Assembly: GCA_937891465.1 (NCBI GenBank)
Contig: CALAHF010000097.1
Span: 62,001 to 126,000, forward strand
Origin: an uncultured Verrucomicrobiales bacterium
GTDB taxonomy: Bacteria; Verrucomicrobiota; Verrucomicrobiia; Verrucomicrobiales; DEV007
Direction: 5' to 3'
DNA length: 64,000 nucleotides
The position numbers and the translations under genes were made by a program. This document shows positions 24,178-31,097 of this stretch, one piece after another. Numbering within the stretch: position 1 is the first letter of the stretch; each line of letters opens with the position of its first letter. The notes under the pieces were generated by a model. The model had not been told where the DNA came from and did not search any database. It worked only from the letters and a program-made list of their open reading frames with translations.

Positions 24178-24381
24178 TCAGCGATACATTCCCCACCAGT
24201 CGGAGATTTTAAACCAGAAACGGTCGCCGTGCTTGTAGGCGAGGTAGCCGAATAACAGAGAAATTAAGACAAACAGGCCTGTCGAAAGTCCCAAGCCTAA
24301 ACAAAGAAGGACGCCGAATCCTGATCCGCAAATGAAGCGAATAATGCCTTCGGTTTTGGTCACCGGATGCCCGGTGTTCAT
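24178..24381 (-). CDS. Small two-segment membrane protein in the PEP-CTERM operon
   Basis: A 67-residue protein starting MNTGHPVTKTEG, with two hydrophobic stretches (FICGSGFGVLLCLGLGL and GLFVLISLLFGYLAY) and a Trp-containing C-terminus. I do not recognise the family. Its ATG overlaps the stop of the PEP-CTERM gene by four bases (ATGA), which supports real translation by coupling and this start rather than the upstream ATG at 24417. Confidence 0.55.
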   Translation of the reverse strand: MNTGHPVTKTEGIIRFICGSGFGVLLCLGLGLSTGLFVLISLLFGYLAYKHGDRFWFKISDWWGMYR

Positions 24382-25019
24382 GCAGGCTGGCGAGTTTTGC
24401 GACGGAAAAGTAGGCACGTGAGGCCAAATCCAAGAAGGATCACACCGCCGGGCTCGGGAACGGCTTCAGTTTGGATGTCGAACGAACCGAGGTTGTTCGA
24501 AATGCCGGACTCCTGACCGGTGTAATTGGAATTCACAGCACCGATCACGGCGGTGAGATTGACATCGCTCAGCAAAAATTCGGACACGTCGGGATCGGTC
24601 GGTTGGGCAGATGGATAGAGCCAATTCACACTTGTAAGTAAAATCACTTCGGCATTGGCATCGCCCAATGCTCCGTTGGTTCCCCAAATGTAAGCATGGT
24701 CTCCAGCATCGAACGTTAAATTGTCGGTGATATTAGAGCTGCCGGTGAACCAATTGTTGGCGCCGTCGTCGAAGGTGGTGCTGTCCAGCGTCGACCAGTG
24801 AGAAATCCAATCGGAATAATTCGCACGGGTTGCCGAGGGGAGAAAATCATCGAATCCACCTAAATAAAATGTGTAACTTGAATCCAACGCAACTCCAGCA
24901 CTGTCGAAGCTGGACGTGGGGGTTTGGATAATTTCGAAGCCCCAATCAATCACATCAGCCCGGGAAATTCCGGCGCTGATGAAAAGAGCTGTGATGAGTG
25001 CAAAAATTCGATTTTTCAT
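24378..25019 (-). CDS. PEP-CTERM sorting-signal secreted protein
   Basis: A 213-residue protein with signal peptide MKNRIFALITALFISAGISRA, a beta-rich acidic middle, and a C-terminal PEP-CTERM tail: VPEPGG, a hydrophobic segment (VILLGFGLTCLLF) and basic RRKTRQPA. Proteins with this tail are cleaved and sorted by an exosortase and usually go to the surface or exopolysaccharide; no exosortase is in this window. The start codon overlaps the stop of the upstream secretin remnant by four bases. Confidence 0.85.
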   Translation of the reverse strand: MKNRIFALITALFISAGISRADVIDWGFEIIQTPTSSFDSAGVALDSSYTFYLGGFDDFLPSATRANYSDWISHWSTLDSTTFDDGANNWFTGSSNITDNLTFDAGDHAYIWGTNGALGDANAEVILLTSVNWLYPSAQPTDPDVSEFLLSDVNLTAVIGAVNSNYTGQESGISNNLGSFDIQTEAVPEPGGVILLGFGLTCLLFRRKTRQPA

Positions 25020-26437
25020 CGGGTGCGTTTGTTTGAACGATTAAAAAGAAGGTAGCGTCGGGAGGTTTTGTCGATTTGAGGCTCGTTAACATGAACTGGC
25101 TCCAAGCCGGTTTCCTGAAAAATTCCGGGGTCAGCAAATTCCATGGTTTCTTCAACGATTTCGGATCGATTGATTTCCAAATCGACGGTATCGCGCGGCA
25201 TTTCAGCGCCAGGATGGCTCGGTATGATGTGCGGCTGAATGAAAATGAGCAGCTCCTCGCGGCGCGTCCGTTTGTCGGTTGAACCCAGCATTTTTCCCAG
25301 AATTGGAATGCGCCGAATCACGGGAAGGCCGGTCGATTCTTCTTCCTCGCGCTCGGTAATGAGTCCTCCGAGAACGATGGTTGAACCGTTGTTTACCGAA
25401 ACGGTGGTGATCAATTCCTGAGTCGAAAGCGTCGGGATTTCGTTTCCGAAATATTCTGGCTACCGGTGATATTGTCGTTCAACTGAGCAATTTTCAGGGT
25501 GACCTGATCATCCGAATTGATCAGCGGGATGACCTGCAATTTCAGGACGACATCGCGACACTCGATGTTCGAAGCGATCGATCCGGGGAATTGATTGTTT
25601 CCCAGCCCATTGCCGCCGGTGCTGGTCAGCGTCGAGAGCGGCACGGCAATTCGCTGACCGCTTCAAATGGTAGCCTTCACGTTTTTTTGCGCATAAATTC
25701 TGGGCCGCGAGAGGATACGGAAGCGGGTGTCGCGGGTGAACAAATTGATCATTCCATTCACCAACGCGTCGTCGCTGCCAAACATCATTTGCCCATAGAC
25801 AGACAATCCGCCAGTTGCTCCTGAAAAGGCTGAAGAGGAAGCCAAACTCGCAATGTCAGCAATCGGGTTCGCCGTTCCGTCAGCGCCGCCTTTCAAAAAC
25901 GATCCGGCACCGGCAACGCTGCGATTATCGGAAACCTTAAAGCTATCCAGCGTCTGCAACGCATTCAACGCGTAGCCGAAATCGTCGCCCAAATTGAGCT
26001 GGCCAATCACGGTCGAGATGTAAACCTGGCGTGGCTGGATATCGATTTCATCGATGAGTTTTTCGACGATTTCGAGGTGCTCCGGCGAACCTGATACGAT
26101 CAGCGAATTGGCCTGCGGATCGGCGATTAAAAGCGTATTTCTGACGACGTAACTTTGAGGCTGGCCGCGTTCTTCTGTCTCAGAAAGTCTGATCGGGTGC
26201 GGTTATTTGCGAACTCCAACCAGCTCCGGCCCCACCAGAAAAACCGGTGTTTTGGATGCCTGAATTTTGTCCGCCGAGATTTGGAGCGTTTGCGGCATCG
26301 AGTAGATTGTCTCCTTTTTCGATATCGGTTCCGCGAGCCAACGCATTGTAAAAAGCGGGCAAATACTCGGCGACGGAAACGTGATTGAGCGTCCGTTTCA
26401 GAAAATTAACGCCATCGCCGGGCTGATCGATGAACAA
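25016..26437 (-). pseudogene. Decayed type II secretion-like secretin (GspD family)
   Basis: The secretin sequence continues across three lesions. The upstream part (IDQPGDGVNFLKRTLNHV) changes frame near 26180. The N-domain segment (LIADPQANSLIVSG, then PRQVYISTVIGQL) runs to VKATI, where an in-frame TGA at 25663-25665 interrupts ...ATI/SGQRIAVP. The frame changes again near 25450 before EYFGNEIPTLSTQEL. The last part carries the secretin hallmark GSTIVLGGLITEREEEESTG, VIRRIPILGKMLG and EELLIFIQPHII. The 5' end is missing where a half-copy of the dispersed palindrome begins. The downstream PEP-CTERM gene still overlaps its stop. Assembly error could explain one lesion but hardly all of them. 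Confidence 0.85.
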
Positions 26438-26540: not shown

Positions 26541-27719
26541 ATGGCTGAGGACATGTTATCACCCCGGTCTGACTATGGTCGGACTTTTATAACCGCAATG
26601 TGGGTTCTGGGAGCAATCGCAGGACTGCAAGTTGCTGCGGTAAGTTGGGCTGTGTTGACGAAAAAACCCCGCCAACCCATTGCGTCGCAACGATTAACTC
26701 CACCAGCTGTTGAACCTGAGACGCCGGCAATCGCAGTTGCTCAAAATCCAGTGAATCAACAGACATCTGTGATTCCGCCGATCAATCTTGGAACGCCAGA
26801 TTTGAAGCCACCAACTCAACCTGCCAGTGTGTTGCCCGGCCCAGCTTTTCAAATGCCGGATATTCCGCCGGCTCCACGACAATCTGATCCCAATGCCCCT
26901 CAACCGCTTGGCACGGCTCTCGCTTCAACCGCATTGGAAAGTCACCCGGCTCACAAAATCGAAGATCGATTGGTTTCAGCCATGGTTGTTGCCGGAGAAG
27001 AGCTTCGCGGAACCGGAAATATGCAGAGTGCTTTAAAATCCTTGCGGGACGCAGAAGAGGCCCTGCCGAATCATCCACGCATCCTCGCTGAACTTGCAGG
27101 GACCTTCAGCCAAATGGGGCTGGAAGAGAAAGCGCTCGATTATTGGAAGCAAATTTACAAACTCGGTGAATCCAATGCGGGCGGTTACTACGCGCTTGCT
27201 GAAATGGCATTGAAAGGAAACATGATGACTTCCGCAGCTGGAACAACGGCCGCGGTTTTGAGCATCAAAAATGTCGAGGTGAAGAGATCTCCCATCGATC
27301 CAAAAACAGGAGAAAAAGTGACACTACGAGTGACTGTTGATGGCGACTCCAAGGTCCGGCCTTCCGGAGAAGAAATGGAGATGTCGGTCTATTTTTTCGA
27401 TAAAGTGGACGGAAAACTGATCGATTCGACAACGGCGGACACGAAACAGGATTACCCAACGGCGCCCTACGATTGGCAGGGTGGCTCATCAGAATCGGTC
27501 GACGTCGTTTACAATCAGCCGGTTTTTACCGTTGAACAAAAACGGGAGCTTGGAAAAAGAGTTTACTACGGGTATGTGATTGAGCTTTACTACCGCGAAC
27601 AATTGCAGGATACCGTTGCTGAACCTCAGGAACTGCTCGAAATGCACGCAGAACCCGCAAGTAACGACAGACCACTTGGCCCTGATGGGTCATTGTTTCC
27701 AGCTGGAATAAATGAGTGA
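26541..27719 (+). CDS. Membrane-anchored TPR-like protein
   Basis: A 392-residue protein. A short cytoplasmic N-terminus precedes a single membrane segment (about 16-37, FITAMWVLGAIAGLQVAAVS). Then come a Pro/Gln-rich linker (about 40-125), a tetratricopeptide-like helical region (about 130-215, with ALKSLRDAEEALPNHPRILA and KALDYWKQIYKLGE), and a C-terminal beta-rich domain (220-390). It resembles scaffold proteins but I cannot assign a family. It precedes the pseudokinase fusion by 73 bases on the same strand. The ATG at 26541 is preferred because the upstream part of the open frame is translated repeat sequence. Confidence 0.65.
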   Translation: MAEDMLSPRSDYGRTFITAMWVLGAIAGLQVAAVSWAVLTKKPRQPIASQRLTPPAVEPETPAIAVAQNPVNQQTSVIPPINLGTPDLKPPTQPASVLPGPAFQMPDIPPAPRQSDPNAPQPLGTALASTALESHPAHKIEDRLVSAMVVAGEELRGTGNMQSALKSLRDAEEALPNHPRILAELAGTFSQMGLEEKALDYWKQIYKLGESNAGGYYALAEMALKGNMMTSAAGTTAAVLSIKNVEVKRSPIDPKTGEKVTLRVTVDGDSKVRPSGEEMEMSVYFFDKVDGKLIDSTTADTKQDYPTAPYDWQGGSSESVDVVYNQPVFTVEQKRELGKRVYYGYVIELYYREQLQDTVAEPQELLEMHAEPASNDRPLGPDGSLFPAGINE

Positions 27720-27792: not shown

Positions 27793-30105
27793 ATGGATGG
27801 ATCGACCACGACCCTGCTAATCGTTGACGGCTCACCGACTGATCGCGAAGCTTTAAAAGCTGCTGTCGGCGATTCCGTTGGACAAATCCACGAGGCGGCT
27901 TCACCTGAAGAAGCGTGGGCAAAGGCTGAAACCCTAGATCACCTGCACCTTGTGGTTGCGGGGATCCCTGACGAAAACGGCCAGTCGATCTTCGAATTTA
28001 GAGACCGTTTGCGAGGAAAATTTGGCGATCTCCCAGCTGCGTTTTGTAGTCGGAACGACATGAGCGCCTATTACAGCAGCGTTTCGAAGGACGAAATGTT
28101 GTTCTACAAGCCGATCGATCAGCAAGTAATGCGAAATTGGCTCGGAGAAGTCACGGGCAAAAATGCAGCGGAAGCTCCTCCGGTTACCGATGACACCATC
28201 TCAATCCCTAATGCTCCCTCCTCAGAAACAGGCCCGCAGGCAGAGGCGGCACCGGAACCACTCCCTGAAGGCTCGCTTCCAGTTGGAACTGTTTTAGGCG
28301 ATTATATTCTGAAACAGGTGATTCAAAGCGACAACGATTTCGCCCTTTATGAAGCGGAGCAAACGTCGATCAAACGTGATGTGGCGATTAAATTGCTCTA
28401 CCGCAAGCACCGGAAAGATCCCGTGTGGGTCGGCGCTTTTGTTGAAGAAGCACGGGCCCGGGCGCTCATCAATCACCCGTCGATCTCGCTCGTTTACGAA
28501 GCCGCTCAGGAGCACGGCGTCAATTTTTACACACTGGAACTGATTGATGCCCCCAGCCTCGTCGACCTTTCAAATCGCCGCGTCATGTTGGATGACGACG
28601 CACTGTGGAATATCCTCGAATCCGTCAGTAGCGCGCTCTGCTATCTGAAAGCCAACCAAATGCGGCATCGCCTCGTGGGGAGCGACACCATTTTTGTGGT
28701 GAATGATGATCAAGTCCGCATCGCCAACCCCGTCAAAAGTTCGAGGGCGATGGTGACTGTCGAAGAAGAACGTCAGCAAATGCGCTTGATCGGTGAGGCC
28801 ATTCGCCCGTTCCTACGCCAGGGAAAAACAGATGCAGCCATTTTTACGATTCATGACCGCCTGACACAGGACCGAATCGATTCCATCAAAACTTCCGAGA
28901 CCCTCAAAGAAGCCCTCCACACGACTGAAGCGGCCCCTGTTTTCACAGCGGCTGAAAAAGCTCGAATCAATGAACAAAACTCCGATAAAACGGCCGTCAT
29001 CGTCGGCGGGCTGGTCGGCGGACTCATTGTTATTGGGGCACTCGTTAGCTATTTCCTGTTTGGAGATCGTCCCGTCGCACGTGATTTCTCGATTAGTCAA
29101 CGCGTCTCAGCCGGCCCATCGATTTATCAAGATTCGGAAAAAGTGGAGGTGGGAGATTTCTGGATGTCTCAGCACGAGGTGACCATTGCTCAATACGCCG
29201 AATTTTTGACCGATATCGCAGACAATCCTGCAAAATTTGATGAGGTAAAACACCCTTCTCAGCCGGTTGATAAGAAGTCATTCTCGCCAAAAGACTGGGC
29301 TGAAATCTATGGCAAGGCAGCGAAAGGCAAGAAATTCAAGTCCGTCCATATCGACATCAATTGCCCTGTTCTGAATGTGGAATGGTGGGATGCCTACGCT
29401 TATGCCCGATGGAAAGGCGGACGCCTACCTACCGTTCAAGAATGGGAAAAAGCATCACGTGGCCGGACTGGACAAGCCTATCCGTGGGGAGAGGAAGTTG
29501 ATCTTACAATTTTCAACTCCGGCGCTGATTTAGAAGCCTCCGGAGAGGGCGAGGAAAAGAAAAACCCCGGCGAAATCGATGGGTTTAAATACTGGGCTCC
29601 CGTTGATGCTCATCCTCAGGATTCCAGCCGGTACGACATTAAAAATCTCGCGGGTAATGTCACCGAATGGACCTCTTCATGGGATATTCACGCCAATAAA
29701 CCTGACACAAAAGTCCCACTCAAACGGGGAGCTTGTTTCAAATATACCGAAGGGTTTGAGCTAAAAACCCGGCGATCTACCGAAGGCCCTGAAGACACAA
29801 ACTTGTGGACCGGTTTTCGAATCGTTCATGATGCGGACCCTGAAACGGGAACACCGTCACCTCCGCCGCATACCGAAATCCCAAGCGGAGCCGCCGGAGT
29901 TGCAGCTCCCGCAGCTACTCCCGCTCCAGCGGCTGATGGAGAAGAAAAGCCTGCTGGAGAGCCTGCCGCAGCTGATGGAGAAACCATGGAACCGAAGCCA
30001 ACTGGTGCAGCTGCCGACGCAACACCGGCCATAGAAGGCGTAGCAGTGACTGCTGAACCAGCCGCTCCGAAACCAGAGGAAAAACCAGCCCCGGATTCGC
30101 AGTAA
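27793..30105 (+). CDS. Fusion of degenerate receiver, pseudokinase, membrane segment and FGE-like domain
   Basis: A 770-residue protein with four parts. Residues 5-120 look like a response-regulator receiver, but the phospho-acceptor region reads LVVAGIP with no aspartate and the acidic pair is VDG. Residues 165-385 look like a Ser/Thr protein kinase: Lys200 is kept in VAIK, but the HRD loop is HRL (292-294) with no Lys or Asn after it, and DFG is replaced by NPV (312-314), so catalysis is unlikely. A membrane segment at about 395-417 follows. Residues 440-690 form a formylglycine-generating-enzyme/SUMF1-like domain with CPVLNVEWWDAYAYARWKGG, RLPTVQEWEKASRG and NLAGNVTEWT, but only one Cys near the usual active site (KRGACF). 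An Ala/Pro-rich tail ends the protein. It is probably a signalling or assembly scaffold. Confidence 0.8.
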   Translation: MDGSTTTLLIVDGSPTDREALKAAVGDSVGQIHEAASPEEAWAKAETLDHLHLVVAGIPDENGQSIFEFRDRLRGKFGDLPAAFCSRNDMSAYYSSVSKDEMLFYKPIDQQVMRNWLGEVTGKNAAEAPPVTDDTISIPNAPSSETGPQAEAAPEPLPEGSLPVGTVLGDYILKQVIQSDNDFALYEAEQTSIKRDVAIKLLYRKHRKDPVWVGAFVEEARARALINHPSISLVYEAAQEHGVNFYTLELIDAPSLVDLSNRRVMLDDDALWNILESVSSALCYLKANQMRHRLVGSDTIFVVNDDQVRIANPVKSSRAMVTVEEERQQMRLIGEAIRPFLRQGKTDAAIFTIHDRLTQDRIDSIKTSETLKEALHTTEAAPVFTAAEKARINEQNSDKTAVIVGGLVGGLIVIGALVSYFLFGDRPVARDFSISQRVSAGPSIYQDSEKVEVGDFWMSQHEVTIAQYAEFLTDIADNPAKFDEVKHPSQPVDKKSFSPKDWAEIYGKAAKGKKFKSVHIDINCPVLNVEWWDAYAYARWKGGRLPTVQEWEKASRGRTGQAYPWGEEVDLTIFNSGADLEASGEGEEKKNPGEIDGFKYWAPVDAHPQDSSRYDIKNLAGNVTEWTSSWDIHANKPDTKVPLKRGACFKYTEGFELKTRRSTEGPEDTNLWTGFRIVHDADPETGTPSPPPHTEIPSGAAGVAAPAATPAPAADGEEKPAGEPAAADGETMEPKPTGAAADATPAIEGVAVTAEPAAPKPEEKPAPDSQ

Positions 30106-30176: not shown

Positions 30177-31097
30177 ATGAGCGGTTATCAGTGGAAACGA
30201 CATTGGCAGGGACTTTTTTGGGGAATGATTGTGGCGATCGCGGCGAGCACCTCTGCGCGGCTTCATGCTCAAATTGATGTCGATTTCAAACTCGCAAAGT
30301 CGACATACATTGCTCACGAACCCGTTGTCGGAGTCCTTTCGATCGTCAATCGGGCCGGTCGCGACCTCGTTCTCTCGGGAAAAAACGGACAAAGTTGGCT
30401 CGATTTTCGAGTCGTTGATGGTCAGGGCCGCATGGTTACCCCCTCCGCAAACGCCCTTCCGCCGAAGCCCATTATTTTAAAAGCAGGTCAGCTATACAAA
30501 AAAAAAGTCGTCATCAATCAGACCTATCCAATGGGGCGGATTGGACTCTACCGCGTCAAACCCACGGTCAATTTATCCCAGATCAATCGTGTTTTTACCA
30601 CCGCGAAAAACGTCACCGCGACCATCGTTGAGGGCCAAAAAATGTGGGAGCAAACCTTTGGCGTTCCGCGAGGCTACGATGGCGAGGGAACATTTCGTGA
30701 ATACGCACTCGTCACTCAGCATCAGGGAAATCGTCAAAAGTCCCTGTATTTAAAGCTTACGGACGTTTCCAGCGGGCTCGTTCGAAAAGTCTATCCCATT
30801 GGCGACTACATGGGCATTCGGCCACCCGAAAAGATCGTCAATCGCGAAAACAAACTGCACGTCTTTCACATGAGTGGGCCAAAGTCATTCGTCTACAGCA
30901 TTATTGGAGTCGATGGCGTCCCCATCGAGCAACAGGTCTACGTCGTCAAAGGTTCCAGCACACCATCTATGGTAACCAATGCCGCCGGCGACATTGCTGT
31001 GATCGGCGGCATGACTCTCGAAGAGAGTCGCGAAACCTACGAAAGCCGCGAGTTCAGGAATATCTCTGAACGTCCTCCCGGCCTTCCCAATCTCTGA
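30177..31097 (+). CDS. Exported protein of unknown function
   Basis: A 306-residue protein with a hydrophobic signal region (GLFWGMIVAIAASTSARLHA) and then an Ig-like beta-sandwich at about 33-140. The pattern (YIAHEPVVGVLSIVNRAGRD ... SWLDFRVVDGQGR) resembles BsuPI-type or arrestin-like domains. The rest is beta-rich and unrecognised. It lies 71 bases after the pseudokinase fusion on the same strand, so the three genes from 26541 may form one module. Function unknown. Confidence 0.6.
   Translation: MSGYQWKRHWQGLFWGMIVAIAASTSARLHAQIDVDFKLAKSTYIAHEPVVGVLSIVNRAGRDLVLSGKNGQSWLDFRVVDGQGRMVTPSANALPPKPIILKAGQLYKKKVVINQTYPMGRIGLYRVKPTVNLSQINRVFTTAKNVTATIVEGQKMWEQTFGVPRGYDGEGTFREYALVTQHQGNRQKSLYLKLTDVSSGLVRKVYPIGDYMGIRPPEKIVNRENKLHVFHMSGPKSFVYSIIGVDGVPIEQQVYVVKGSSTPSMVTNAAGDIAVIGGMTLEESRETYESREFRNISERPPGLPNL

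Follow-up and report, generated by a model that had tools for sequence, protein, structure and literature searches.

What does a protein do that joins a receiver domain, a kinase domain and an FGE-like domain across a membrane, when key residues of all three are missing? The question is raised by F0, a 770-residue protein found in the ORF listing of a 64,000-nucleotide stretch of DNA (the window) from an uncultured Verrucomicrobiales bacterium. A preliminary description of this gene had proposed a coordinated loss of function in its three domains, and a role as a ligand-sensing or assembly scaffold. We followed up these proposals through the domain architecture of F0, its residues in homologous proteins, its selection and its neighbouring genes.

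Domain architecture of F0

Pfam assigned residues 449-678 of F0 to PF03781 (FGE-sulfatase, 1.4e-33) and residues 186-311, which are part of the kinase domain, to PF00069 (Pkinase, 1.8e-08). There was no Pfam receiver match in the window protein, whose receiver sequence is too diverged; receivers of its homologues match PF00072 at 43-62 bits. The structure prediction called for in the preliminary description recovered the receiver, kinase, transmembrane and FGE-like folds: an AlphaFold2 model with 30 homologues as input (mean pLDDT 82) has these four folded parts and a disordered tail. Over residues 7-121, strands and helices alternate as in a receiver, at a pLDDT of about 90 or higher, and the transmembrane helix spans residues 405-423 of the model. 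Comparison of the model with VIA-align gave Z 24.3 over 215 residues with human FGE and Z 23.6 with SUMF2, and residues 162-380 aligned to PknB (1o6y) with Z 20.5 over 215 residues. As the scores with human FGE and PknB are high and the domain order is constant in homologues, these matches are not due to chance. A match to TIGR03927 (EssA) was confined to the C-terminal kinase/transmembrane stretch and was taken as chance. The model and transmembrane prediction agree with the earlier placement of the domains on two sides of one transmembrane helix; Lys and Arg are richer N-terminal of this helix in 46 homologues, versus 18. Most homologues beyond the close relatives of F0 have no C-terminal tail. 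Coordinates of these features and of the two partner genes are collected in Table 1.

Table 1. Positions in the window of F0, its domains and the adjacent partner genes.
Feature	Position	Strand	Description
Receiver-pseudokinase-TM-FGE-like protein F0 (P0001)	27793..30105	+	770 aa, ATG start; ORF, Pfam, AlphaFold2
Pseudo-receiver domain	27808..28155	+	about residues 6-121; fold model, residue alignment, PF00072 in homologues
Pseudokinase domain, PknB-like fold, putatively shortened activation segment	28285..28947	+	about residues 165-385
Asn312 codon, fixed substitute for DFG aspartate	28726..28728	+	family alignment
Single transmembrane segment	28990..29061	+	about residues 400-423; model and TM prediction
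FGE-like domain, predicted periplasmic, without catalytic Cys pair	29080..29844	+	about residues 430-684
Low-complexity Pro/Ala-rich C-terminal tail, predicted disordered	29845..30102	+	AlphaFold2 model, homologue comparison
Partner F1	26541..27719	+	N-terminal TM helix, Pro-rich linker, TPR repeats, C-terminal beta-sandwich
Partner F2	30177..31097	+	306 aa, signal-peptide-like N-terminus, no Pfam match

Catalytic and acceptor residues across the family

The kinase domain of the window protein retains the VAIK lysine, Lys200, and has Glu219 at the alphaC-Glu position. Residue alignment agreed with the earlier reading of HRL and NPV for HRD and DFG: the first motif is His292-Arg-Leu294 and the second Asn312-Pro-Val, and the HRDxxxxN Asn is also missing. 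The order of helices suggests that the APE/activation segment is shortened, with alphaF- and alphaI-like helices directly after it. We examined these motifs in an alignment of 128 sequences, including a non-family protein with an intact kinase (L149). At the DFG-Asp position, 122 of about 126 homologues have Asn and none has Asp, and Asn312 is nearly invariant (97 percent) in the family alignment; the HRD-Asp is present in four homologues, none of which has the DFG-Asp. The VAIK Lys is present in 33 of the 128 aligned sequences, with Val, Glu or another residue in about three quarters of the family, and the alphaC acid is not conserved. The window's clade and near relatives keep both Lys200 and Glu219, and nucleotide binding is therefore possible in these proteins. 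With Leu at the HRD-Asp, Asn at the DFG-Asp and such replacement family-wide, F0 is not a catalytic Hanks-type Ser/Thr kinase; its PF00069 match, structural similarity to PknB and replaced motifs are those of a bacterial pseudokinase. Judged from the alignment, the pseudokinase state is old and fixed in the F0 family.

Among the shortest homologues (L067, L069, L070 and L071; 460-482 aa), the DFG position is Ser or Asn and the end of the FGE-like domain is eroded. L149 (L149:3-1595), on a contig labelled as a Devosia MAG that is probably a mis-binned verrucomicrobial contig, encodes a kinase-TM-FGE fusion. It shares with F0 the FGE subfamily signature DHPxQP...HxPxxW...WWDAYAY after the transmembrane helix, but differs in its intact HRD (IHRDLKPAN) and DFG motifs, which make it a candidate active cousin of the F0 family.

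The FGE-like domain of F0 has the FGE fold, by both its PF03781 match and its similarity to human FGE, and neither catalytic Cys; the pair is absent in every homologue examined. A single Cys near the usual site had been described. Cys648 is indeed close, but in the alignment it lies three residues N-terminal to the first catalytic Cys of the FGE motif RGGSFLCHESYCNRYR of L181, and the window protein is its sole carrier in the larger homologue set. Nor is it the only Cys, since Cys524 (NCPV) is better conserved (49/112 homologues). L181 (G000:C89:52351-53196) is a genuine FGE with the catalytic Cys pair and is encoded in the window genome, which has 11 PF03781 matches in total. Most PF03781 genes of this genome with a readable active-site stretch also have no Cys pair, and a 'loss' in the FGE-like domain is therefore not demonstrated. 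Family-wide, the sequences support the earlier view that neither the kinase nor the FGE-like part is catalytic in the conventional sense. A search for orthologues with intact catalytic residues, proposed as a check, found none for either of these two parts and did find them for the receiver.

Receiver residues were assigned by alignment to CheY and Spo0F. Gly57 occupies the acceptor position in the window protein, as expected from the reported absence of a phospho-acceptor Asp; the acidic pair is Asp12-Gly13, Ser is at the S/T position and Lys106 is retained. The domain is thus a pseudo-receiver, with a receiver fold and no acceptor Asp, and not a phosphorylatable receiver. Chthoniobacterales-type homologues have the full DD/D/(S,T)/K set of a phosphorylatable receiver together with the same pseudokinase and FGE-like domain, and the idea of a coordinated loss in three domains does not survive this comparison. 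Verrucomicrobiaceae homologues have Glu instead of the acceptor Asp, while the window's lineage has Gly, Ala, Asn or Ser there; homologues of the Roseibacillus/Akkermansiaceae-type clade have no receiver. These states cluster strongly on a tree of the kinase and FGE-like parts, a quick, unrooted LG tree with long branches on which gain and loss are formally indistinguishable. The receiver has decayed or been lost in separate lineages; the kinase and FGE-like states are family-wide, and each state was reached separately. On the simplest reading, suggested by the canonical receiver sequence of one clade, receiver decay would be later than pseudokinase fixation. The F0 family repeats a pattern of Glu-substituted and intact receivers seen in fungal Rim15 kinases, where one clade has Glu for the receiver Asp and other clades have an intact receiver (PMC12632262). 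Two class-level homologues (L162 and L166) have a DUF4388 (PATAN-type) domain, at 72 bits, between receiver and pseudokinase, a placement that resembles other response-regulator proteins.

Family spread, selection and neighbouring genes

The F0 family comprises about 126 homologues across Verrucomicrobiales, Chthoniobacterales and relatives, and 33 of the 37 near relatives contain a strong match. Searching contigs with a single protein gave no match, while an alignment query gave named Verrucomicrobiales and Chthoniobacterales matches, and a class-wide search yielded further homologues. A phylum-wide tally was discarded as overstating the spread of F0, as most matches beyond the class have just a kinase or just an FGE domain. 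The window genome showed no further kinase-FGE gene of F0 type. Four homologues on contigs labelled Akkermansia muciniphila (L095, L098, L121 and L132) group in the tree with unrelated Verrucomicrobiota, so their species labels are doubtful.

In close pairs with unsaturated dS, dN/dS for F0 was 0.07-0.13, which rejects a loss of selection. Between the window and its nearest relative the pseudokinase gave 0.06; dS of this pair is saturated over the whole gene. F0 is under purifying selection and is therefore functional.

The genes on either side of F0 were missing from the preliminary description. In 66 of the 70 loci where the position is visible, F1 is the gene directly upstream, on the same strand, separated from F0 by short gaps or, often, joined by overlapping stop and start codons. 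Its ORF in the window opens at 26430, and homologues begin at MAEDM, corresponding to 26541. Foldseek searches with F1 returned generic TPR and beta-sandwich matches only, and its membrane topology is ambiguous by the positive-inside rule. F2, predicted to be secreted, directly follows F0 in 41 of 77 loci. Wider neighbours in some lineages, named by reading their sequences, we take to be a PabB-like gene (divergent), an N-acetylmuramoyl-L-alanine amidase, Nnr and SppA; further neighbours, again in some lineages and named in the same way, are presumably a CAAX protease, ThiL, TsaE and TsaB. No histidine kinase gene was found among the recurrent F0 neighbours. Just upstream of F1-F0-F2, the window holds a secretin C-terminal piece beside a PEP-CTERM protein (25016-25414 and 24378-25019, both on the minus strand).

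Candidate roles for F0

F0 can be classed broadly as a bacterial transmembrane pseudokinase, and does not have the defining features of EssB, PorK, an active kinase or an FGE. The best solved-structure match of the F0 family profile is human SUMF2 (pFGE; PDB 1y4j, 2.9e-33), a stand-alone ER protein, whereas the FGE-like domain of F0 is fused to a pseudokinase. Fold matches of the pseudokinase are the pseudokinase domain of MviN/Rv3910 and PknI/PknB; MviN is a multi-TM flippase whose pseudokinase recruits FhaA, and PknB is an active kinase. Our literature search, with subscription journals and preprints mostly outside its scope, found no description of the family or its domain combination, and the F0 family is absent from the main text of the essential-genome paper on V. 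spinosum. A 2025 review of bacterial pseudokinase families makes no mention of Verrucomicrobiota, receivers or FGE-like domains (PMC12599244).

On the cytoplasmic side, the parallel is EssB/YukC of type VIIb secretion in Bacillota, a transmembrane pseudokinase that acts as a secretion scaffold and in which the three motifs and the activation loop are all degraded (PMC12599244). As in F0, a cytoplasmic pseudokinase is followed by one transmembrane helix and an extracytoplasmic domain, but this last part is helical in EssB/YukC and FGE-like in F0, and F0 has a receiver in front of the pseudokinase. No T7SS-like genes are among the recurrent neighbour families identified at F0 loci. On the periplasmic side, the parallel is PorK, in which a Cys-less FGE fold serves as a docking hub (PMC12421860). 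F0 resembles PorK/GldK of the T9SS ring in its FGE fold without the catalytic Cys pair, and its profile matches PorK chains. However, PorK sits in a ring with an outer-membrane anchor, while the FGE-like domain of F0 is tethered by an inner-membrane helix to the pseudokinase; with its cytoplasmic N-terminal domains and internal helix, F0 does not have the outer-membrane lipoprotein anchor of PorK/GldK. No PorL/M/N homologues were identified among the recurrent F0 neighbours. F0 belongs to neither of these families.

The non-enzymatic domains and near-constant partner gene suggest that F0 is probably a scaffold passing a signal across the membrane. By analogy with EssB/YukC inside and PorK/GldK outside, we see an even chance that it is a non-catalytic transmembrane scaffold between a receiver input in the cytoplasm and a docking domain in the periplasm. 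Such a scaffold is supported by the retention of both the kinase and FGE folds at high confidence despite loss of catalytic residues, and by the absence of the Cys pair in the family though a genuine FGE is present in the same genome. The receiver would be a phosphorylation-controlled input module, or derived from one, for which the intact receiver of the Chthoniobacterales-type clade is plausible. The pseudokinase would respond to the receiver's state by changing its shape or oligomeric state without phosphotransfer, and the single helix would relay this change to the FGE-like domain, on which F1, and F2 as well in many species, would dock. Signalling would probably run inside-out, serving some process in the envelope. 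In the window lineage the receiver, not phosphorylatable at the usual site, may be locked in one state or controlled by protein binding. The cross-membrane scaffold proposed previously therefore fits the non-catalytic domains, the selection and the layout, and what falls away is the coordinated triple loss.

More tentatively, F0 may be a class-wide, nearly always F1-linked signalling or scaffold module of Verrucomicrobiota that gives an inside-out phospho-signal output without kinase activity: a two-component receiver would act, through the pseudokinase and across the membrane, on an FGE-like docking hub in the periplasm. Separate lineages would later have locked the receiver (Glu), disabled it or discarded it. 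Most bacterial pseudokinases are uncharacterised, and the F0 family is a natural series in which one kind of pseudokinase is combined with a receiver that is intact, Glu-substituted, disabled or absent. This makes receiver control of a pseudokinase, and the consequences of giving up phospho-input, testable. The series includes Prosthecobacter-type MAGs and the cultivated Brevifollis gellanilyticus, so that genetics is possible in principle.

An outside-in receptor, with the FGE-like domain (a C-type-lectin-related fold) binding an envelope ligand and the pseudokinase and receiver recruiting cytoplasmic partners, is an unlikely alternative that draws on the same domains. The FGE-like domain is the most conserved part of F0 (mean top-residue frequency 0.54, versus 0.40 for pseudokinase and receiver), and many homologues without a receiver keep it, suggesting that this side may hold the primary function. 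However, the intact receivers of the sister clade point to an intracellular input, and among the most reduced homologues there are several in which it is the FGE-like part that has eroded.

It is less probable again that the pseudokinase still binds nucleotide or performs other chemistry, for which SelO and SidJ are precedents (PMC12599244). Conservation of Lys200 and Glu219 in the window's clade would suit such an activity, as would the near-invariance of Asn312, as if it had a set role. Yet most family members have another residue in place of the Lys, the alphaC acid is not conserved, and neither the catalytic Asp nor its Asn is left; an invariant Asn amid varying ATP-site partners fits a structural role better.

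We consider it improbable that F0 is part of a dedicated secretion or envelope-spanning machine, like T7SSb EssB or the T9SS PorK ring, and does not signal. Secretion machines do provide the best functional parallels of both halves of F0, both partners F1 and F2 belong to the envelope, and some loci have an amidase gene downstream. But the neighbourhood has no recurrent translocase, ATPase or secretion substrate, and the downstream Nnr, SppA, ThiL, TsaE and TsaB genes look housekeeping. That F0 is a decaying gene without remaining function, as the missing textbook residues of three domains might imply, is scarcely credible given its low dN/dS, its strong matches in nearly all near relatives and its conserved gene order.
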